From the NCBI RefSeq assembly GCF_030867095.1, contig NC_081828.1, positions 208,512,978 to 208,576,977 of the forward strand: DNA of 64,000 nucleotides. Direction: 5' to 3'. The position numbers were made by a program, and so were the translations under genes. Position 1 is the first letter of the stretch. Each line of letters begins with the position of its first letter. This document shows, piece after piece, positions 16,301 to 63,519 of the stretch. The DNA comes from Alligator mississippiensis (lineage: Eukaryota; Chordata; Crocodylia; Alligatoridae). Below the pieces are notes generated by a model. That model worked only from the letters and a program-made list of their open reading frames with translations. It was not told where the DNA came from and did no database searches.

Positions 16301-19300
16301 GGCACTCCTGGGTGCCTGCAGCCTCCATCCAGCTTTGCTCCTTTTTGAGTCCCTCATAGCTCCAACAATAACCCTTGCTTCAAACAAACAAGGAAGCAAA
16401 CCTTCAGGCTTTCTCCAAGCAGCAGGAAAATGGCATTTAATACCAGCTCTTCCTAGAAGCAATTGCCTCTGGATATCAGTCTGCTTTCAACCCAATGCAA
16501 GCTCCTTGTTCTTTCTCCCCCTTGGACTTTTAACTGCCTGCTAATCACCCACAGCTGGCTTCCTACCCCAGGGTTATCTGCCTCCCGTGAAGGGCCAGAT
16601 TGCTCTTACACCATCATTGTAACTTTGTGATGTTGGTACCTTTGCAATCCCAAACATGACTTAGAGCAACCTCAGTGTTTCTCTGCATTATGACAGCTGT
16701 CCAGAGATACAATGAAACCGTCCACAGCAAATTCCCATTAGGGATTGCCAGAAACAGCACGAAGCAGCCACGCAGAGGGCAGAATTTCCCTCCGAGGTTA
16801 CCTATCAGCCCTTTTTTATTTCATTTTCAAATCTGCAGGAGAGAACACGAGAAGGACCTGCTTGTTTCTGTCCTTCCTGAACAACCAGAACAACTTCAGC
16901 ATCTAATTCAACGGCAGGAGTGCTTGTGGGTGTGACTTAGGAGTGAATGCCACCGTTCTGGCTGGCTTACCTTGACTGAATGAGGAACCTCCAAACAGAT
17001 GGCAGCTACTCCAGTTCTTCGGCTGGGCCCTCGGCAGATTCACGTGTACTAGGGATCAGGAACACGTGGCCTGTAGTACATGTTCACTTCGGAGTTGGCA
17101 CTGAAATGGATTTGCATTTAAAATAGGGCTTTGTTCTGCAAAGTGGCTCTACATATGGGACAGTGAGGGTCCCGATGCTTGTCTGTTGATTCCAGGTGAC
17201 AAAGGAAACCAGCCCCATGCAGCGTACCTGGCATCAAACATCATCAATCATAAAGGTTTTGCAGGCCAAACGACGCTCTTTATTTACTTCTGCTCTGACC
17301 TAGTTGCCTTCAAAATGTGTTGCTGTGAAGGGGTTTGCACACTGAGGGTGTGAATAGAGCTTTATAACCAAAGTTGCTGATGGTGCACAAACTTTGAATT
17401 CTCATAAAGGCAGCGATGGTGATCAAACGTCCCAAACAGGGGGAGAGGAGAACAAGCACTGTGCTACCTCCTGCTGGCTCTGGGCACTGTGGACAGATGG
17501 GCTGACACCTCAGCATAGCGGTAACCTCTCTCCTGAGTAGGTTGGACTAAATTTTGACAGACATCTCTGGGCTTTGTAACTCCTTAACTTTGACCATATT
17601 TTTACTAATGCATACCTCATCCCAGACCAATGGAGCTCTTCCAAAAAACCTCCCTTCATACCGTACTCATAGCAGTGAAAATAACCCTCATTGTGTTCAA
17701 TTAAAATACCATCACTCTTTCTTAAACTGAATGAATTCTGCAAGGTTAGGGAAATAAAGGCAAGTACAATATATTTTTGTCATTAAGGTAAGCAGGTAGA
17801 CCTGTGCATACAGACACAAGGGATCATGCTTTGACATGGCCAACTTTCATTGATACCTGTGGAGCCAGGATTTCACCGCAGAAGATCTCCTGAATAAGTA
17901 CGTGACAGTGTTCATACAATAGCATTGTAGTGTTGTATCCACGAGGATCCAGGGAAACAGCGAGAAGCAAGATCTGTTTAGTAATATCGTTTATCAAAAT
18001 AAGAGTTAGACATGCTTTCAGGCACAAAATGCACTTCTTTAGGCCACAAAGCGAGAACCTCGCACTGTCATTCTCCTTTTTTCCAGCTCTCAATTTACTG
18101 TAGGCATTGAAATACTCAGTCTTTTACTTAAAGCCCCAGCTCCTGAAATCACTGTCTGTCCTTGTATCTCAATTTTCCTTTAGGGGAGAAAAAAATCTAC
18201 CCCCCATGGCTGCAAAGGGAGACTGGAAAAAAACATGACCCAAGGATGTCCTAAGGGTTTTGAAAGCAGTCGACAAATAAAATGTACAACAAAAAGTGAT
18301 TGCTTAAAAAAAAAGGAAACTGGTTTTGGGCTAATCCCGTGATATCTGAATTCAGACTCATAATTTTTTTTTTAAAGGCCCAGGATGATGCACTACCGTG
18401 TGGTCATTTTTCAGAAGAAAATGACACACTAATGAAATCCCAGGTTCCTACTAAAAGGCAATATAATTTGGACACCATAACAATTTCTACCATGACTGCG
18501 AGAATCCCACTAACCAGGAAAGTGGTTTCAAGAGCTCCGCTGCGGTAGGAGTCCATGGCATGTAAACTGACTGAAAAGGCTGGGTTGTCAGCTTGCTAAA
18601 ATAGCTCGTACGGAGGTGCTGACAAAAACATCCTGGCATTGCAGTCCAACACCTCCAGTCCTCACAGGGTTATCAGTGACGTTTGACTCCGAAACATTTT
18701 TCTCTTGCTGCCAACAGCCATGCCACTTGAACTATTTGCTTTCACATGCTTTCCCTTTGACACGGGTGCTATTTCTTTGTAATATGTAAACACTCAGGAG
18801 GATTTCCATGTTTGTTCTTTGGGGAGATAGGGGGGGAGGCCCTTCTTTTCCAATGATACGTAGAAAATGACATGAAGAAACTGCCTCTTTCACTTCCAGT
18901 TTCAGCGTGATTTGTGGGTGACGTTTTCCTGCCAGCCTTCTCTCCTTTTTACCCCCCTTTCCCAGCATGCTGCTTATAGCAGGGAAATTCATTGCTCTTC
19001 TCAGGAATACAACACGCTTATTGTCACTGCGCACGGAGTCGTATGATACCAGAGCTTGATGGCCGCCTGCTTCTGATTACAAAGACACGGACATTTCTTT
19101 TCTTTCTTTGTGTGCTCCTACGCCTGCAGCTGTTGATGATTATGAAAACTCCCCCTAAGAGCAAAGCAAATGGCCATAGCATCCTGTAATAGATCTCCTT
19201 GGGCTGACCTACACTCATGTAACATTAAGAATTGAACCCAAGTCCTGGATTTTCAAAGCTGCTCAGAGATTTGGTCACGCAACTACCACGGAGGAGCAAA

Positions 19301-24550: not shown

Positions 24551-25785
24551 TTAAACAATGGATTCTTTATCTCTGTCCGGAGATAACAGACAATCTATAG
24601 CTTCCTCACTCTTGCTAGAGTCTGTCATTTTTAGCTGGAGGTTGTCACTGGTGGCTCTTGTGACACTGTCATAGGATGGAGGGAAAGATGTTGAGGAAAC
24701 AGAGTTTGATTTGTCTATGGGCCTACCATAATTTTCATTCATCATAAAGGCAATAAGACCTTCCTTCTCGGGGGCACCTTCGTCAATGATGTTGCCATCA
24801 CAAGTTCTGTGACGGTATAAGTATGAAGCCTGTTTCAGAGAACGTAGAAACAAATGCCTTCGATACGCCCGCTGGATAATAATGGCAGAAACCTCCTCTT
24901 GTTTCCGCCTGAGCGTGGTTGTGATTGGTTCATAGGAAATCTTAGATGGGTTGGCAGCCATAAACTTTTCCTCCATCTGTATTTTAAGGGCATCCATCTC
25001 TCCAGATTCTCCTAGCACCTTTTTGGTAAAAGCAAACAAAATATCCAAGCAGTGGATCCTATCTCCACTGACCATGGGAAGGTCCATTGCTATGAGCTTA
25101 ATTTTGTTTGGTTTTGGTATGCGTAAAGGTTCGGACAGTGCATCTGCAAAGTCTGAAAGTGCAGAATACTCAATAAACTGAGTTGCTTCAGGATCAAACT
25201 TCTCCCAGATTTCATAAAACATATCAAAGTCATCCTCGCTTAGAGGCTCTGTGCTTTCCTCAGTGGCCACACTGAAGTTCTCTAAAATAATGGCTATATA
25301 CATGTTTACAACAATGAGAAATGATATAATGATATACGTAACAAAGAATAAAATCCCTATGGCAGGGATTCCACAATCTCCTTTCGAACCATTTGCATTT
25401 AAGATGTTTGGATCACAATATGGTGGTCCAGTGTTTAAAATAGGATTGAGAAGCCCATCCCAGCCAGCTGACGTTGTGATTTGGAAGAGACAGAGCATGC
25501 TGTTACCAAAGGTTTGGAAGTTGAACATGTCATCAATCCCATGCTCCATCTTAACGTAGGCAAAGTTAGCCATGCCAAAAATGGCATAAATAAACATGAC
25601 TAGAAAAAGTAGAAGACCAATGTTGAACAGAGCAGGAAGTGACATCATTAAGGCAAAAAGGAGAGTTCTAATTCCTTTGGCTCCCCGTATAAGTCTTAGG
25701 ACCCGGCCGATCCGAGCCAAGCGAATGACTCTGAAGAGTGTAGGAGAGAAAAAATATTTTTGAATGATGTCAGAAAGGACAGTGC
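24551..25785 (-). CDS. SCN5A: SCN5A last exon: domain IV S4-S6 and C-terminal tail
   Basis: The exon starts after CTTAAAG, completes a glycine codon, and encodes 410 residues to a TAA stop. In order: [18 protein letters not shown]4 ([17 protein letters not shown]); S5; the pore loop TTSAGWDG with the alanine of the DEKA ring; S6 ([21 protein letters not shown]); an EF-hand-like domain ([19 protein letters not shown]); the IQ motif [11 protein letters not shown] that binds calmodulin; the PPSYDSV motif, a Nedd4-type ubiquitin-ligase docking site; and the ESIV C-terminus, a PDZ ligand for syntrophin/SAP97-type partners in Nav1.5. The upstream ATG-initiated reading frame that continues above 25785 is intron read-through. 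The tail is the part most diverged from human but keeps every motif. Confidence 0.97.
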
Positions 25786-26855: not shown

Positions 26856-27126
26856 CCACAATGGATAGAATCACAACAACAAAGTCAAAGATATTCCAGC
26901 CGTTGGTGAAGTAGTAGTGTCTTAAAGCCAACATTTTAATCATGCACTCTCCAGTGAAGATAGCAACAAAGACCATGTTGATTATATGAAGGATATGGAC
27001 TTTTTCATGACTTTGGTCATCTGTTTCTACCATCATGGTGATCATGTTAAGGCAGATGAGAATCATGATGGTGACATCAAAGGCTTGCTTTGTGACTATG
27101 TCGAAAATAAAACCTTGGTATTTGTT
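26856..27126 (-). CDS. SCN5A: SCN5A exon 27: domain IV S1-S3
   Basis: This 271-base exon begins [17 protein letters not shown] and encodes S1 ([16 protein letters not shown]), S2 ([17 protein letters not shown]) and S3 ([15 protein letters not shown]) of domain IV. It contains the acidic charge-transfer residues of S2 and S3 in GEC and FDF. The acceptor is TTATTTCAG. The donor GTAGGT follows the first base of a glycine codon, which the next exon completes with GC. The S1-S2 loop ([13 protein letters not shown]) differs from human (SPEKINILAKINL), while S2 and S3 are almost identical. Confidence 0.95.
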
Positions 27127-27510: not shown

Positions 27511-29721
<2,211 letters not shown>

Positions 29722-29859
29722 CTTTTTCTTTTGTTGGTTGAAATTGTCAATAATGACACCTATGAAGAGGTTCAATGTGAAGAAAGACCCAAAGATGATG
29801 AAAATCACAAAGTAGAGGTACATGTATAAACTACTTTCCCATTCAGGCTGCTCCTCACT
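29722..29859 (-). CDS. SCN5A: SCN5A exon 25: domain III S6 and start of III-IV linker
   Basis: This 138-base exon begins [17 protein letters not shown] and runs through the S6 helix ([20 protein letters not shown]) to DNFNQQKKK, the start of the cytoplasmic linker that carries the fast-inactivation gate. S6 lines the inner pore and forms part of the local-anaesthetic binding region. The acceptor is ATCTGTGCAG. The donor is not GT: the exon ends at AAG and the intron starts ATAAGTACT. A GT-AG reading would not give the conserved KKKLGGQD junction, whereas AT-AC boundaries give it exactly and give an exon of the standard length. Confidence 0.94.
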
Positions 29860-31767: not shown

Positions 31768-31821
31768 CCCTCGTGAATCGACTGCTGCATACATAATTTC
31801 CATCCAACCTTTAAATGTTGC
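31768..31821 (-). CDS. SCN5A: SCN5A exon 24: domain III selectivity filter
   Basis: This is an 18-codon micro-exon reading ATFKGWMEIMYAAVDSRG. The lysine in FKGWM is the domain III residue of the DEKA ring that makes sodium channels select sodium over calcium. The acceptor is TTTCTCAG and the donor is GTAAGT. Both boundaries fall between codons, joining ...LALLQV to the exon at 29722-29859. It is too short to be found by ORF length and was recovered from family knowledge. The 54-base length is typical of this exon in vertebrate sodium channels. Confidence 0.95.
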
Positions 31822-32799: not shown

Positions 32800-34400
32800 G
32801 GATGACCAGGGTGGGATGAATTATGCCCACCATTGGTGTGGATCGTGTGAGGGAGCATCTTGAGAGGCTGGACCCTCACAAATCAGTTGTTCCACATAGT
32901 TTGCACCCAAGAGCGCTTAAAGAACTGGCAGAAATCATAGCATAGCTGCTGGCAAGGATATTCGAGAACATGTAGTGCTCGGGCAAAGTACCTGAAGATT
33001 GGAAGAGGGCCAATGTGGTGCCTATCTTCAAGAAAGGAAGGAAAGAAGACCCAGGAAACTACAGGCCAATTAGTTTGACTTCAATCCCTCAGAAGATCTT
33101 GGAAAAAATATAAAAGAAACCATTCTAACAAAAGGCAACATCCTGATGGACAGCCAGCACGGGTTGGTTGCGGGTAGGTCTTGCCTGACCAACCTCATTT
33201 CCTTCTATGACCAGGTGATGTATCACCTGGACAAAAGTGAAGAAGTTGATATCATATATTTGGACTTCAAAAATGCCTTTGACCTAGTATCCCATGATGT
33301 CCTCATGGAAAAATTGGGCAACTGAGGCCTTGACTACTCCACAGTCCCACGGCTGGGGAACTGGCCCTGAGGTAGGACGCAGAGGGTGGTAGTTGACAGA
33401 ACCGAATCAACGTGGCACTCGGTGACTAGTTGTACCCCACAAGACTTCATTCCTGGACCTGTACTCTTTAATGTCTTCATAAACAATCCGGACACTGGTG
33501 TCAGAAGCAGACTGGCTGAGTTCACTGAGGACACCAAACTTTGGGGAAGAGTGTCCACACTTGAGGATAGGCTGGTTACCCAGGCTGACCTCAATAGGCT
33601 TGCAAGGTGGGCGGATGAAAACCTGATGGCATTCAATGCAGAGAAATGCAAGGTGCTCCACCTCGGGGGAAAAAAAAACCTGCATCACACTTATAGGCTC
33701 AGCAATGCTACACTCAATAGCACCATGACCGAAAGAGACTTGGGGGTTATGACTGACCACAACATGAACATGAGCCATCAGTGCAATATGGCAGCTGGCA
33801 AAGTGAGCAAAACTCTGGCTTGCATCTACTGATGCATCTCAAGCAAGACCCAGGATGTCATCCTCCCGGTGTACTCAGCCTTGGTGAGGATGCAGCTGGA
33901 GTACTGCATCCAATTCTGGGCTCCACAATTCAGGAAGGATGTGGAGAAGCTTGAAAGAGTCCAGAGGAGAGCCATGCTCATGATCAGAGGGCCTTATAAA
34001 GAGAGGCTGTGAGCTATGGGACTCTTCAGCCTGGAGAAGCGCAGGCTCAGGGGTGACTTGGTGGCAGCCTATGAGTACATAGGGGGTGTGCATCAGGATC
34101 TGGGGGAACGCCTGCTCACCAGAGCAGCCCAAGGGATGACAAGGTCCAATGGTCACAAACTCCTGCAGGACTGTTTTAGGCTGGACATAAGGAAAAACAT
34201 CTTTACTGTCTGAGCCCCCAAGGCCTGGAACAGACTCACCCCAGAGGTGGTGCAAGCACCTACTCTGGACACTTTTAAGAAACATTTGGATACTTATCTT
34301 GCTGGGATCCTTTGACCCCAGCTGACTTCCTACCCCTGGGGCAGGGGGCTGGACCTGATGATCTTACGAGGTTCCTTCCAGCCCTAATGCCTCTGAAATC
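32800..34400 (+). mobile_element. CR1 LINE, 5'-truncated, RT to 3' end
   Basis: A plus-strand CR1 retroposon begins inside the reverse-transcriptase region (DWKRANVVPIFKKGRKEDPG, then NYRPISLTSIPQ) and continues through VLFNVFINNPDTG, the thumb and C-terminal region (ADENLMAFNAEKCKVLHLGG, TERDLGVMTDHNMNMS, FSLEKRRLRGDLVAAYEY) to the 3' UTR ending near TACGAGGTTCCTTCCAGCCC. The frame is interrupted several times by stops and indels, so it cannot be active. It lies in SCN5A intron 23, antisense to the gene. Truncation at the 5' end is usual for CR1. Confidence 0.95.
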
Positions 34401-39467: not shown

Positions 39468-39749
39468 CACCTGTAGAAGAGCCAGGTAACCAGCACCAAC
39501 GTTATCAAAGTTGACTTTAACTTTTGTCCAGAAAAAAGTGCCAGTCGTATTAGACTCTGCGCAGTCGGTCATGTTGTTAATAATTCTGTAATCTAACGGC
39601 ATATCCCCCTCAGTCTTGTTAATGCATTTTCCAAACTTTCCTGCAAATAGGTTCACTCCCATGATGCTAAAAATGAGCCAAAATATAAGGCAGACGAGCA
39701 GCACATTCATGATGGAAGGGATGGCACCCACCAGGGCATTCACAACCAC
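39468..39749 (-). CDS. SCN5A: SCN5A exon 23: domain III S5 and start of pore loop
   Basis: This 282-base exon encodes the S4-S5 linker, S5 and the long extracellular turret leading into the domain III pore loop. Visible landmarks are [18 protein letters not shown], the S5 helix around [18 protein letters not shown], potential N-glycosylation sites (NKT, NMT, NTT) in the turret, and the re-entrant helix start [13 protein letters not shown]. The acceptor is CTTCTTTAAG and the donor is GTAAGT, both in phase 0. The length equals the human SCN5A exon as I remember it. The turret diverges from human while S5 and the pore helix are almost unchanged, as expected for this family. Confidence 0.95.
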
Positions 39750-46778: not shown

Positions 46779-47500
46779 GGGTGCATCTACACGAGAAGTG
46801 TTAGCCTAATTTAATATGCATTTCAGGCATGCATCTACACATGTGCGCCCCCAATGCGCATTAAAAATGCTAAAATGAGGCTAATCAGGCACTTACACAC
46901 ATACAGGGAGCCTGCTTGAATGTGCTAGAAATCCAGCACATTACAACAGACTTTATTAATTGAGTCTGCTGGAACATGTAAATTGATGTGCGCTGGCAGC
47001 CTCATGCATCGCGTGTATCAGCAGCGTAGCACACCTCCGCATTGAGGAAACGGAGGCAGCATGCTTTGAACTAAAACACGTTCAATGTGCTTTAGTTCAA
47101 AGAGTGCACTACCATCATTTTCACAGCGCGGGAATGTGCTGCACCGCTGATGCATGTGATGCATGGGCGCTTTTAATTAGCATGGCTTACTAATTAAAAG
47201 TTCCTGGCACTGCATTGGGAGCACATGTAAAAATGGCCATCATGCCTAAATTGTATCATGCTCATGCAAATGCAGGTATCAAATTTAGGCCCAATTAGTT
47301 AAAGCATATTAACGCACATGTAGACACAACCCAGCACTAACGTCAGTGCCAGGTCTGCCCAGCCACTAGGGGCACATGGCAGGGCTGCAGGGACTTGGCA
47401 TGAACTTGAATGCCAAGTGTCTGCACATGAAGACACCTGCCAAAAATTGCTTAATACACATTAAATTTAGTTGCACTTAAATGCACGCGTAGACACGCCC
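46779..47500. mobile_element. DNA transposon (GTGTCTACAC-end family)
   Basis: The left end GGGTGCATCTACACGAG is the inverse of the right end ATGCACGCGTAGACACGCCC. Subterminal TAATTTAATATGCA and AAATTTAGTTGCAC also pair. Internal motifs (CTAATTAAAAG, CATCTACACATGTGCGC) repeat the end sequence, suggesting nested or rearranged copies. It is non-coding and lies about 800 bases downstream (in gene orientation) of canonical exon 22. Confidence 0.7.
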
Positions 47501-48315
47501 AGAGATCTTAAAAATAGTGCTAAGTTATGCCCTATGTTCTCCCCCAAAGTTATAGTTTGCACCATATTCTAACCTTGCCATTGGATTTACATAATCAGTA
47601 TTAACTTTGGCTAGTACAGAAGGCAGTTCACATCATTTGCTAGTCAAGCATGATAGAATAGTTAAGTAAAGAAAACACAGATCTACATTGTTAAACATAC
47701 TTGCTATGCTAAACATGCACAAACAGGTGCTCATGCAAGAAAATGTGAAAGGAAGAAGACAGGCATACAAACAAAATACAACAAGAAGCGTTAAGTCACT
47801 TGGTTACGATGCTAATCCTGGCATTCCATGGTGAGATTGAAATGTATCAAAGGAAAAAAAAAATGTTGCATTTGCTCATTTGTTTTCCATGTGTCTAATG
47901 CCTTTAATCTTCATTTTTATTATGAGTGAAAAAGTCCTTGAGAACTTTCCCACCCTCTCTAATTTTAATACAATTTGAAAACAGGGAGCAAACCCATAGC
48001 AGAATCATTTCCCCTGATGTGCTTCATAATTGAGAGGTCACTGTTAGCCAGATGTTCCCTCAGTCAAAAAGCAGGGTTTTAAACACAGCAGGATAAGTTA
48101 TGCAGCGGGATTAGCTTATCAGGACATCCACCAGAGAGTAAAAGCTGTAGCTATGCTACTGCAGTCAAGACAACAGAGGGATTTTTTTTTTGACACAGCA
48201 TTTTCATTCGTGTCCTTTTGCAGTCTCAATGAAAACAAAACCAAATGAAATATTGCCCTTTGACATGCTTGATGGTCACACAAGGGGCTTCGATGGTTGC
48301 TTTATTTCCTCTTAC

Positions 48316-48438
48316 CCTCATCCCTTCAAATCGTGACAATGCTCTTAATGGTCTCAGAGCCCGGAGGGTCCTAAGGGATTTAATGGGACCCATTTCGGAG
48401 TATCCAAGTGTATTAGCTATGAGGCTTATTAAAGAGAC
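48316..48438 (-). CDS. SCN5A: SCN5A canonical exon 22: domain III S3-S4 voltage sensor
   Basis: This 41-codon exon encodes the end of S3, the short S3-S4 loop and the S4 voltage sensor of domain III. It begins [20 protein letters not shown] and ends SRFEGMR, with the regular positively charged residues of S4 in [17 protein letters not shown]. The loop residues EMGPIK match mammalian Nav1.5 more closely than other paralogues (human has AEMGPIK as I remember it), so this is the constitutive cardiac-type copy. The acceptor is CCATTCAG and the donor is GTAAGA. Reading frame is phase 0 on both sides, so the next residues VVVNALVGA come from the exon at 39468-39749. The competing copy lies 786 bases upstream in the gene. 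Confidence 0.95.
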
Positions 48439-49224
48439 CTGAATGGAGACACAAAGCAAAAGTCCAAACTATTAGCACATTCCTGCCATTTGGCTTCTCT
48501 TCTGCCTCTCCTACCTGCAAAGAAAAAACCTGTTAATGGAAAGATGAAGAAAAGCTGTAGTCAGAACCTGTAGTATTAGAATAATGAAGGAAAAAAACAG
48601 TGTTTTAGCATTCACATATATCCACAGTTCCTTCCAGAGAGCAGAGCCTTTGTTTCCAGCTTAATGCCAACTCATTGAAAAGGTACCTAAATGGTTTCTA
48701 AGGGTATCTTTTTTCCTCCAGCCAAGAACACAGTGCTCCTAGGAATAGCAGCGGGTGTTAAGCAGGCAGGAAGAAAAAAAAAAAAGATCATGGCTGCTTA
48801 ATGGCATCAACGTTTTAGTTTATTTTACAACTTATGGAAGAGTGGGCGCATTTCCCACGATGGAAAATATGATGTTATATACATGCTGTATTTATTGCTG
48901 TCCAGGTGGATCGTTCTGCAAGATCCTATCATCTACCAAAAGGGTAAAAAATCTTAACGTTGCCATGATAAACATTTTAAATGGATAAAACTATTACCAA
49001 TTTAAAATTTCCTTCTGAATTGCCATTGGCTCTGAGGATATTAGGCTCTTTAAAGGAACTGAGTATATGCTTTTTGTTTAATTCATTGTTTGTTTTTTGC
49101 TGTGGTCCAGCTCTCTGGGCAGCTCCTAAAAGAGAAGACTCAATATTATTTCCCTGTAAAGGAAAGTGATCAGGTATTTGGCATTAAAACTGAACACTTC
49201 ATAGACACTAAAAGATACCCTTAC

Positions 49225-49347
49225 CCTTATGCTTTCAAATCTGGATAAGGCTCGGAGAGGCCGCAAAGCCCTCAGTGTTCTGAGAGATTTCATAGCGCCC
49301 AGCTCGTCATAATCAAGAACTGATGCTATCAGGCAAACAACTGAAAT
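49225..49347 (-). CDS. SCN5A: Alternative SCN5A exon: domain III S3-S4 voltage sensor (DYDE form)
   Basis: This is a second, intact copy of the domain III S3-S4 exon, lying first in transcription order. It is 123 bases (41 codons), open in phase 0, with a CTGCACAG acceptor and a GTAAGG donor. It reads [20 protein letters not shown] and then the full S4 repeat from KSLRTLR to SRFESIR. Compared with the canonical exon at 48316-48438, 28 of 41 residues match. The S4 block from K20 to E38 is identical in protein, yet 15 of its 19 codons differ silently. The changes cluster in S3 and the extracellular S3-S4 loop, which gains two aspartates (GYSE becomes DYDE). Equal length and phase suggest it substitutes for the canonical exon, as exons 18N/18A do at this position in SCN8A. 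That is inference: the sequence does not show when or whether it is used. No stop or splice defect is visible. Confidence 0.88.
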
Positions 49348-49671
49348 CTGTGCAGATTGAATGGAATTTGAGATTACTGGTCAGAGGAAAAATACATGGA
49401 GTAAATGGTTATACATGCCACAGTCAGTAGTCACAGCTTCAATTCTTACTGACCACTGTGTGAAAAGGAAATTGTTCCCTGACACTGTGAGTGTCTCTCT
49501 GACTTTGATGGATTCATTTCCATCCCATCTTTTGTAATCTTTTCTCTACTGCATTCCTGTGCATACTGTTTCTCCCAACAAATCCCTTGCTCCCACCTGT
49601 CCGGAGGTATTTGTATGCTCCTCCCCCTCATTATCATAGGATTTGAGAGCTTCCCAGTCTTGAACGGATTC

Positions 49672-49840
49672 ATCTATCTTTGCAACAAACCTGTGATGTA
49701 GGGAAGTGCTGTCCAGAGGATTGAGGCTCGCAGAGATTAAGGCTCAGTCTCACAAAGGTATTTAGGCTCTAAGCAGGGCAGAAATTTCACCCCAGGTCTC
49801 TCAGACCCCAAACTATTGTCCTAATCACTGGATAGTCCAT
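49672..49840 (+). repeat. Diverged MIR-like SINE
   Basis: CAACAAACCTGTGATGTAGG, GCAGAGATTAAGGCTCAGTC and a later CACCCCAGGTCTCTCAGACC with CCTAATCACTGG follow the order of MIR blocks. It is more diverged than the 22.4 kb copy and lies about 330 bases upstream (in gene orientation) of the alternative voltage-sensor exon. Confidence 0.55.
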
Positions 49841-50717
49841 TCTTCTCAAAGTATATTCATTTAACTATGCAAACTGGAGTAGGCAGTACTGACGTCTAAA
49901 CATCTGTGTGCAACATGCTCAATATTTTTAATGATTTATACATTTTTGGCCCTTTCATGACATTTTAGTGACAGCCAGCATTATGGCAGCAGCTCCTGGA
50001 GTCATTATGCCCAGGACAAACACAACAGACTGGATCCTTAGTTGGTATATTTGGGGTAGCTCTCTTAGAAGAAACTCTGGAATAGACCATGGAGCACTGA
50101 CTACTGATGCACTTTTTAACATGGTGCAACATGCTAACGCAAATCACTGGCCCAGGGACTGATCCAGGGACTGATGAGTAGTGATGAGTACATTATAAAA
50201 TGTTAATAGACTGGACAGCTAGCCTGGGTTAAAGGTCTGACACCCAGGGAATTTTAGACAAGTGAGATTTCTAATTTACCACTGGGGCACCCCATTTGTC
50301 CTCCCCCTGAAATATCCCTGAGACTTTAAACTATGACAGTATTGTGCAGAGAAAAGCTATTTTACGATAGACTATTTTTATCGGTTTCACATGCATAAAG
50401 AGATATTTCAGTGATATATTTCTGCTGCTACTTGCAATTAAATACGGCAACCAGGCTATTACAGGTGGAAGGTAAGTGAAAAACAGCATTGCTAAAACAT
50501 TTTCAAACCTCTCTAACATTTCTGAAATGGATTAGCGGTAACATGACACCAAGCTTTTACTGATGCATCTTTGAAATGCTGTGTACAGCCTGGTAGCCTT
50601 GTTACCATTTGTTACTCTTGTGGTCAAGAAAATCTCAGACTACACCATGTTACCAAGCATTCTTTCTTTTCTTACACCTAGATATATGCACACAGACAGG
50701 TACATGTGCACACACAC

Positions 50718-50718
<1 letters not shown>

Positions 50719-50770
<52 letters not shown>
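50719..50770. repeat. (ATCT)n microsatellite, about 13 units
   Basis: An uninterrupted TATC tetranucleotide array of about 52 bases is preceded by a short CACA run. Such long pure arrays are usually length-variable. Confidence 0.97.
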
Positions 50771-55233: not shown

Positions 55234-56104
55234 TAAAAGTAGATGCTTATCCTGCCTTCTGCCTAACTTCAGACTAACACGGCTAACTTCCTCTGTCTAC
55301 TAATGAAATCCCAGTGCTACAGAAGTCAATGAAAAGACCTGCCATTGACTTCAGCAGGGCCAGGTCTTCACACAGGGAGATTCTAGGTACGTTGCTCTGC
55401 ATGAGTAAGGCTGTGGACTGAGTTTCTATGCAAAGGAGACTCTTCCTTTCTTTATCTGGTTCAGGCCTCAGTTCATCTCAGTACAGACAAACCAAAGGTC
55501 AGAGCAAGCACTGTTAAAGTTTTCCAAACATTTGTTCCATGGATACTGCTCCTGAAATGGGCAGCATGAAGTATCCGGCTCAAAGTCACTGGTAAGTTTT
55601 CCAACAACGCTCCAGGGCTTCAGACAAAAATATGCCCAAAGTCGCCTGCTCCACCTTGACTTCTTTCATGTTGTTTAGAAAGGCCGTTGTTGTTGAGCTC
55701 CCTCTAATCCTAGCATTTAGGGAAGTTTGTTGCACCTGCTTCTTGTGTTCATTGACCATGGACAGTTTTATCTCTATACATTTCCCCCGCTGAGCAGGAT
55801 GACATAACTCAAAGTGAGAGGAAGTCAGTTTCAGATGTCAACCCTATCAGGGCTCAAAATCCCCTAGAGTCAGGTAAATACATAGATGCTCTAACCCCAT
55901 CACTGTGCCATCAGCAGCTGTTTAACAAAACCTTCATTTTCTTTTCTTCCAATCCAAACAAAATACTCTATACTTTTTAAATCTTGTTTCTCAATTAACC
56001 ACTTAAAGTGCCCGCTCTTGAAATCCCCAGTGATTATCATGCTCATGTAATGTGTTTTTAAAGGAAAAGATATGTCATTTCTTGGGGTCTGCTAAATGAA
56101 CAGC

Positions 56105-57405
56105 ATGTATCCAGAACATCTGCAGGGGAGATCATGCTCAGGGGCAATCAGCATGGGTTCATCAAAGGCAGGGCCTGCCAGACCAACCTGATTGCCTTTT
56201 ATGACCAAGTAACTAAATCCCTGAATGATGGTGTCGCTGTGGACGTAGTCTTTCTAGACTTTAAGAAGGCCTTTGACACTGTCTCTCACCCCATCCTCAT
56301 CAATAAATTAAGCAACTGAGGCATTGATGCCTGAACAGTTGGATGGGTAAAAAATTGGCTGATGGGGTGCACCGAGAGAGTAGTGGTGAATGGGCTGTAC
56401 TCAACCTGGTGAGATGTGAGCAGTGGGGTCCCCCAGGGCTTGGTCCTTGGGCCTGCACTGTTTAACATCTTCATCAGCGACTTGGATGAGGGGGTGGAAA
56501 GCACGCTGTCCAAGTTTGCTGATGACAGCAAGATGTGGGGCGAGGTGGACACACTTGAAGGGAGAGAGAGGCTGCAACTAGATTTAGACAGACTACAGAA
56601 GCGGGCAGATGAGAATAGGATGGGGTTCAATGTAGACAAATGCAGGGTGCTGCACCTTGGGAGAAGGACTCCACAGCACACATACAGGCTGGGGAGTTCC
56701 CTTCTTGAAAGCACAGAGGTGGAAAGGGATCTCGGAGTCATTATTGACTCCAAGATGAACATGAGCCGCCAATGCCAGACCACAGGCAGCAAGGCCAGCC
56801 ATACCTTGTCATGCATCCAAAGGCGCATCTCAAGCCGGTCCAGAGAGGTGATCCTCCCCCTCTATGTGACACTGGTCAGGCTGCAGTTGGAGTACTGCGT
56901 CCAGTACTGGGCGCCGCACTTCAAAGGGATGTGGCCAGCCTGGAGAGGGTCCAGAGGAGGGCCACCCGCTTGGTGAGAGGGCAGCAGGACAGGCCCTACG
57001 AGAAGAGACTGAAGGACCTGAACCTGTTCAGCCTCAGCAAGAGGAGGCTGAGGGGGGACCTGGTGGCTGCCTACAAACTCATCAGGGGAGATCAACAGCA
57101 AATAGGTAAAGCCCTTTTCTCCCCAGCATCACCTGGGGTGATGAGGAACAATGGTAATAAGCTGATGGAGAATAGGTTTAGGTTGGAGATCAGAAGGCAA
57201 TATTTTACAGTCAGGGTGGCCAAAATCTGGAACCAACTTCGCAGGGAAGTGGTGCTTGCCCCTATCTTGGGCAAAGTCAAGAGGAGGTTGGATGATCACC
57301 TGTCTGGGGTCTTGTGAACCCAGCATTTATTCCAGCCTGGGGCAGGGGGTCAGGCTAGATGATCTGTTCAGGTTCCTCCTGACCCTAGCTACTATGAAAC
57401 TATCT
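56105..57405 (+). mobile_element. CR1 LINE, 5'-truncated, relatively well preserved
   Basis: This plus-strand CR1 starts within the reverse transcriptase (GNQHGFIKGRACQTNLIAFY, then FLDFKKAFDTVSHPILINKL) and includes GVPQGLVLGPALFNIFISDL, the YADD-equivalent region FADDSKMWGEVD, and C-terminal LFSLSKRRLRGDLVAAYKLI, ending in CAGGTTCCTCCTGACCC. A 186-codon stretch (56416-56976) is still open, so it is less decayed than the copy at 32.8 kb. It has at least one stop upstream and a frameshift near 56.9 kb. It sits in the intron upstream of the alternative voltage-sensor exon. Confidence 0.95.
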
Positions 57406-62940: not shown

Positions 62941-63004
62941 AAGAAAGTCCTCACTTTAAAATAAGGTTGAGTAAGAAAGTCCTCACTTTAAAATAAGGTT
63001 GAGT
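62941..63004. repeat. Perfect tandem duplication, 32 bases x 2
   Basis: Positions 62941-62972 and 62973-63004 are identical, both starting AAGAAAGTCCTCAC. The duplication is directly adjacent and unmutated, thus recent or polymorphic. Confidence 0.97.
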
Positions 63005-63519
63005 ATTCAGCTCCGCTCCGTACAGCGACAGCCTTGTCGTGTAATCATAGGGCTAGAAGGACCCTCAAAGGTCATGTCATCCACTAAAGCTTCCCCTGCT
63101 CACCCACTCCCACTCTCTTCCACCCGACTGAGTCTCTGTTGACTGGCCAAGCTATTAGCCATGCTTGTGCTCAAAGCCAGGGTGTTCTTGATAGGTAGGA
63201 AGAGTAACTTCAGGATAATTTGCCAAGGTGACACCTTATCTTCATTAAATCCTTTGTCAAACCTACTTCTACTATGATACCTGCAAATCACTACTATTTG
63301 GCACTGTGCTGGCAAGTGGGGAGCTGTGCCTTCTCCTTTAACGTTCTCATCTCTTTGTTTATCCTCCCTCTAAACTTCCTGACCACAATTTATGTGTCTG
63401 CTTAGTCCACCTGCTAAGCCTCAGCTAATTCCTAGGCCGTGTCCTCTTTCAGGAAAAAGCAGTGTTCTGACTTCACGGTAGCAACCACGTGGTATCTAAC
63501 AAGAGGTGAAAAACTATGC

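Follow-up and report, generated by a model that had tools for sequence, protein, structure and literature searches.

The question raised by this locus is whether the SCN5A gene of the American alligator can complete the voltage sensor of domain III (DIII) with either of two exons. In the 64,000-nt stretch of DNA that was analysed (here termed the window), two neighbouring minus-strand exons, which we call N and A, each encode an S3-S4 segment of DIII. The reading that we favor, with a probability of about 0.7, is that N and A form a tandem pair of long standing, that each supplies the S3b-S4 half of sensor III of Nav1.5, and that they are used one at a time.

The host gene is clearly the SCN5A orthologue, the 3′ part of which lies in the window. 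Translated together, exon A and the six coding exons downstream of it give 735 aa, the whole of which aligns to residues 1281-2016 of a Nav1.5 chain (8vyj), and the gene was identified as SCN5A because this was the best whole-length match, with 1517.6 bits vs. 1295.2 bits for the best other paralogue, Nav1.4. All six downstream exons are on the minus strand. They comprise the next constitutive exon, which starts in phase 0 and spans DIII S4-S5 to the pore loop (39468..39749), a 54-nt exon of the DIII pore loop (31768..31821), an exon of the DIII S6 region with the donor ATAAGT (29722..29859), an exon of the DIII-DIV linker with an acceptor ending in AC (27616..27720), an exon for DIV S1-S3 (26856..27126) and the last coding exon, from DIV S3 to the C terminus (24551..25785). 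The intron running from 29721 to 27721 on the minus strand starts with ATAAGT and ends with AC, making it an AT-AC intron, a kind known in SCN genes. A tblastn search of the window with a hand-typed probe for DIII S1-S3 did not detect the corresponding exon, which places exon 21 outside it (exon numbers follow the first-pass annotation) and indicates that over 14.6 kb of the intron lies upstream of N. A comparison of the last SCN5A exon with a prokaryote contig collection returned 25 pattern matches and no confirmed relatives, as expected there.

Exon A (48316..48438) is the canonical DIII S3-S4 exon of SCN5A, corresponding to Nav1.5 residues 1281-1321, and exon N (49225..49347), its putative alternative, lies upstream across an intron of 786 nt (48439..49224). 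The two exons are neighbours of the same length (123 nt, or 41 codons), both open and both in phase 0, and they are homologous, with identity at 28 of the 41 residues and at 76 of the 123 bases; an alignment to chain residues 1281-1321 puts both at DIII S3-S4. N is bordered by an acceptor ending in CTGCACAG and by the donor GTAAGG, A by an acceptor ending in CCATTCAG and by the donor GTAAGA, and the AG and GT dinucleotides are intact in each case. The constitutive exon at 39749-39468 follows in frame from N or from A; the in-frame join on the upstream side is taken from homology for both, exon 21 being outside the window. As a protein domain, N matched Ion_trans with an E-value of 4.5e-5 and 23.2 bits, slightly below the Pfam cut-off of 25, and A gave the same score. 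The first-pass annotation had proposed two open, phase 0 exons of 123 nt at these coordinates with these splice sites, and all of this was confirmed; its further claim that both are coding-grade DIII S3-S4 exons of SCN5A is well supported by homology, codon bias, frame and splice sites. It had also called the splice sites sound, which holds for the AG and GT of N and A and needs qualifying for the strength of the N acceptor, as described below.

The openness of N by itself proves nothing, since open frames of 123 nt begin at 18,360 of 127,754 positions on both strands of the window (14%). More informative is the manner in which N differs from A. The 47 differences comprise 16 at first, 4 at second and 27 at third codon positions (chi-square p = 2e-4), and 21 of the 28 residues common to the two exons are encoded by different codons. 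From the first S4 charge onward (position 20 on), 20 of 22 residues agree, with 15 of these 20 codons differing, and residues 20 to 38 are identical throughout (19/19). In 20,000 neutral simulations, no copy kept an identity of 28/41 (highest 27, mean 16.5) and none retained 20 of the 22 S4 residues, while 35% were still open; 62 substitutions were used, trial runs with 60 and 70 having given 43 and 48 differences, respectively. The ungapped flanks, both upstream and downstream past the donor, matched at 1-8 of 20 bases per block, approximately the level of chance, indicating that only the exon was held. With N as the tblastn query, A was recovered at an E-value of 2e-15; the next-best match elsewhere in the window had an E-value of 1.7, and no third copy of the exon was found there. 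By the NG86 method, dN between N and A was 0.25 and dS was undefined; LWL85 and YN00 returned no value. A chance open frame was accordingly rejected as the source of N, as homology and codon-position bias far exceed chance. Together, the identity to A, the codon bias and the absence of any comparable copy among 20,000 simulations indicate that N was kept as a protein-coding exon long after duplication.

Long maintenance in the past is also what would be seen if N had been coding for most of its history, had recently gone out of use in this lineage and were open by chance. Simulated copies of N were still open in 79% of cases after 10 neutral substitutions and in 66% after 20, so a lineage in which N was recently abandoned would look alike. 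The weaker acceptor of N and two of its replacements, which fall on otherwise invariant positions, are in keeping with such a history. We nevertheless consider it unlikely, given that both splice sites of N are intact and that residues 20 to 38 have remained the same as in A without exception. Our reading of the sequence is that N is a genuine second DIII S3-S4 exon, of long standing and of coding grade, and most likely a used alternative; it is from sequence that we infer its present use in place of A.

The residues of N also bear on where it came from. We compared it with eight A-type exons, namely those of Nav1.1/1.2, Nav1.3, Nav1.4, Nav1.5 (6uz0 construct), Nav1.6, Nav1.7, and Nav1.8, together with A of the window. 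N was closest to Nav1.6 (31/41), followed by Nav1.1/1.2 and Nav1.3 (30/41 each), then Nav1.7, Nav1.4 and its own partner A (28/41 each), and finally Nav1.5 (27/41) and Nav1.8 (26/41); likewise, the top phmmer match was Nav1.6 for N and Nav1.5 for A. These affinities fit a duplication that predates the changes special to the A exon of Nav1.5, 41 residues being too few for a tree. A recent copying of A was held unlikely as the origin of N, because synonymous differences are saturated and N is nearer to the A exon of Nav1.6. The same nearness is what might be expected of an assembly artefact, or of a stray DIII exon from another Nav gene that was misplaced into the SCN5A intron. Such an accident is highly improbable, since 9 of the 41 residues of N occur in none of the eight A-type exons, arguing against its being a displaced copy of any of them. 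In Nav1.5 numbering, these are L1283V, S1285C, N1289S, T1290V, G1292D, A1294D, I1299M, G1319S, and M1320I.

The replacements are distributed in a manner suggestive of a functional sensor. Aligned to residues 1281-1321 of the chain, N has the S4 charges in place (K1300, R1303, R1306, R1309, R1312, and R1316). The S3b helix is altered, the S3-S4 loop gains two aspartates (1292 and 1294), and G1319S and M1320I lie at the end of S4. Fifteen positions vary among the eight A-type exons, and these take up 10 of the 13 replacements relative to A (Fisher p = 5e-4, in a test made slightly circular by the inclusion of the window's own A). G1319S and M1320I occur at sites that are invariant in all eight and could represent early decay of N. 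Among human variants, E1295K, P1298L, and G1319V, at or beside the altered positions, disturb cardiac gating. Under the preferred reading, either N or A would complete the DIII voltage sensor, and the form with N would be a working channel that has the same gating charges and a shifted movement of sensor III, affecting activation, inactivation or recovery.

Tandem exons at voltage-sensor S3-S4 segments have precedents. In SCN8A the N exon precedes the A exon, and the order in the alligator gene is the same. The SCN8A exons 18N and 18A, which the first-pass annotation had correctly placed at DIII S3-S4, are described as mutually exclusive in PMC3809569, where 18N is reported to contain an in-frame stop. 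The likeness to the present pair thus extends to protein position and to the tandem arrangement of homologous exons, whereas 18N carries a stop and yields no full-length channel and the N exon of the alligator is open and joins in frame. For this reason, N as a poison exon of the 18N type was rejected. It is also rather improbable that N acts mainly as a switch of expression in the manner of mammalian 18N and 20N, its inclusion alone or along with A giving a misfolded or unproductive product and less channel output. The SCN8A 18N exon, by its in-frame stop, and the SCN1A 20N exon, by a frameshift, act in this way during brain development (PMC3809569 and PMC7790302), and a transcript with N and A together would presumably add 41 residues and repeat S3-S4. 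However, decay by premature stop is impossible for an exon that lacks a stop and is in frame with the next one, and the kept S4 residues suggest that the protein would fold and respond to voltage. The best reading of the sequence is that the pair is the counterpart of SCN8A 18N/18A, with an N exon that is open. At the same protein position, the para gene of insects has alternative exons that are coding, as is proposed here, in a different lineage.

Exon 20 of SCN1A is presumably the canonical S3-S4 exon of that gene, by codon arithmetic with an assumed isoform offset. Like the alligator gene, SCN1A has an extra exon at domain III; 20N is a frameshifting poison exon of 64 bp that its authors compared with 18N and aligned across 77 vertebrates, and the variant name c.3969+2451 places it downstream of exon 20 (PMC7790302). 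The exon described here differs from it in being 123 nt long, in frame and upstream. In mouse cortex, 20N is included in ~70% of transcripts at E14.5 and in <10% after birth, and variants in or near it are linked to Dravet syndrome (PMC7790302).

Within SCN5A itself, the recognised alternative voltage-sensor exons are in domain I. The first-pass annotation had pointed to exon 6 as an alternative DI pair, and this is borne out by PMC3084281, the available part of which describes exons 6a/6b (Nav1.5e) at DI S3-S4. That same text counts nine Nav1.5 splice variants as known in 2011 and lists as functional variants the skipping of exon 18, Q1077, partial loss of exon 17, and exon 6a. A DIII S3-S4 pair of SCN5A is named neither there nor in the available part of PMC7773603, a statement confined to these two texts, and the part of PMC4465641 at hand makes no mention of SCN genes. 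A record of the pair, for example as predicted isoforms, could well exist in genome annotation. The DI and DIII pairs are alike in belonging to the same gene, in covering the S3-S4 half of a sensor, in their tandem arrangement with the alternative exon first, and in a change of linker charge; they differ in that the alternative exon of 6a/6b has a lysine in place of an aspartate at position 211 of domain I, whereas N adds two negative charges (1292 and 1294) in domain III (PMC3084281 for 6a/6b). The neonatal form of the DI pair activates 10.1 mV more positive, and its kinetic change is due largely to the single S3-S4 linker charge at position 211 (PMC3084281). Since one such charge drives most of the change there, by analogy N should shift the movement of sensor III; we make no prediction of the direction.

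From sequence comparison, N and A are probably mutually exclusive. No built-in exclusion device (a short intron, a clash of U2 and U12 splice sites, or a frameshift on joint inclusion) is present at the locus, and none is required for membership of the class; the survey of human mutually exclusive exons in PMC5740500 includes many pairs that have no such device, and it excluded candidates with in-frame stops, among them those of SCN8A. Exclusion by a short intron and crowding is ruled out by the 786 nt between N and A. Transcripts with both exons or with neither would stay in frame, 123 being a multiple of three, and exclusion would therefore need to be enforced by splicing control. By an approximate scoring matrix, the donors of N and A score 4.9 and 4.5, both at about the 99th percentile of GTs in rank, and the acceptors score 2.0 vs. 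5.8, at the 93rd and 99th percentiles of AGs, respectively. The N acceptor region (49348..49390, minus strand) reads TTTTTCCTCTGAC. It holds a branch-point-like CTGAC (49384-49380) after a pyrimidine run, with 32 nt between this motif and N, and an extra AG immediately 3′ of CTGAC, between the likely branch point and the exon. Under the favored reading, splicing factors would choose between N, with the weaker acceptor, and A, with the stronger one, and the N form would be used in some tissue, stage or condition.

One candidate for such control is RBFOX, whose effect on an exon follows a position rule. Its core motif GCATG occurs on the minus strand at 49418, 48886, and 48268, so that one copy precedes N by ~70 nt, one lies between the exons, and one follows A at a distance of 48 nt. 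The placement of the outer two is a layout that was noticed post hoc and arises at 1.3% of window placements; the count of three in 2.1 kb equals the average density of the window. The longer motif TGCATG was absent from the minus strand within 47800-49900. By the position rule, this layout would repress N and favor A. Such an effect would resemble that in SCN8A, where RBFOX favors 18A (PMC3809569). A search of 47500-50500 for known RNA families gave none at the gathering score. Separately, a sequence resembling a U12 donor (GTATCTTTT) was observed at 49218 on the minus strand, where six intronic bases separate it from the end of N. Splicing there would lengthen the exon in frame by two codons, and no match to a U12 branch point was found within 47800-49900.

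Inactivation and drug block of Nav1.5 are shaped by the movement of the domain III sensor, and a coding alternative at this site would represent changes already tried by evolution, useful for reading how sensor III works. The pair may also provide a means for the heart or another tissue of the animal to tune excitability by stage or condition. In addition, it suggests an origin for the poison exons 18N and 20N. We tentatively propose, at somewhat less than even odds, that the common ancestor of the vertebrate Nav genes already had a coding DIII S3-S4 pair, and that SCN5A here retains a working second form of the sensor, whereas in mammalian SCN8A and SCN1A all that is left of N is a ruined exon put to new use as a poison exon. 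Nav1.5 of this lineage would in that case be switchable at two sensors, in DI through exon 6 and in DIII.

The remaining observations concern the SCN5A introns. Two broken remnants of RVT_1 lie on the plus strand at 33074-33829 and 56062-56973 (best E-value 3.3e-10, three of the four pieces being under the Pfam cut-off); these reverse-transcriptase remnants presumably derive from CR1-like LINEs, and a search of solved structures with one of them gave no match. Upstream of N, a perfect 32-bp tandem repeat is present in two copies at 62941-63005, and a pure ATCT repeat of 13 copies occupies 50718-50770, ~1.4 kb from the exon.
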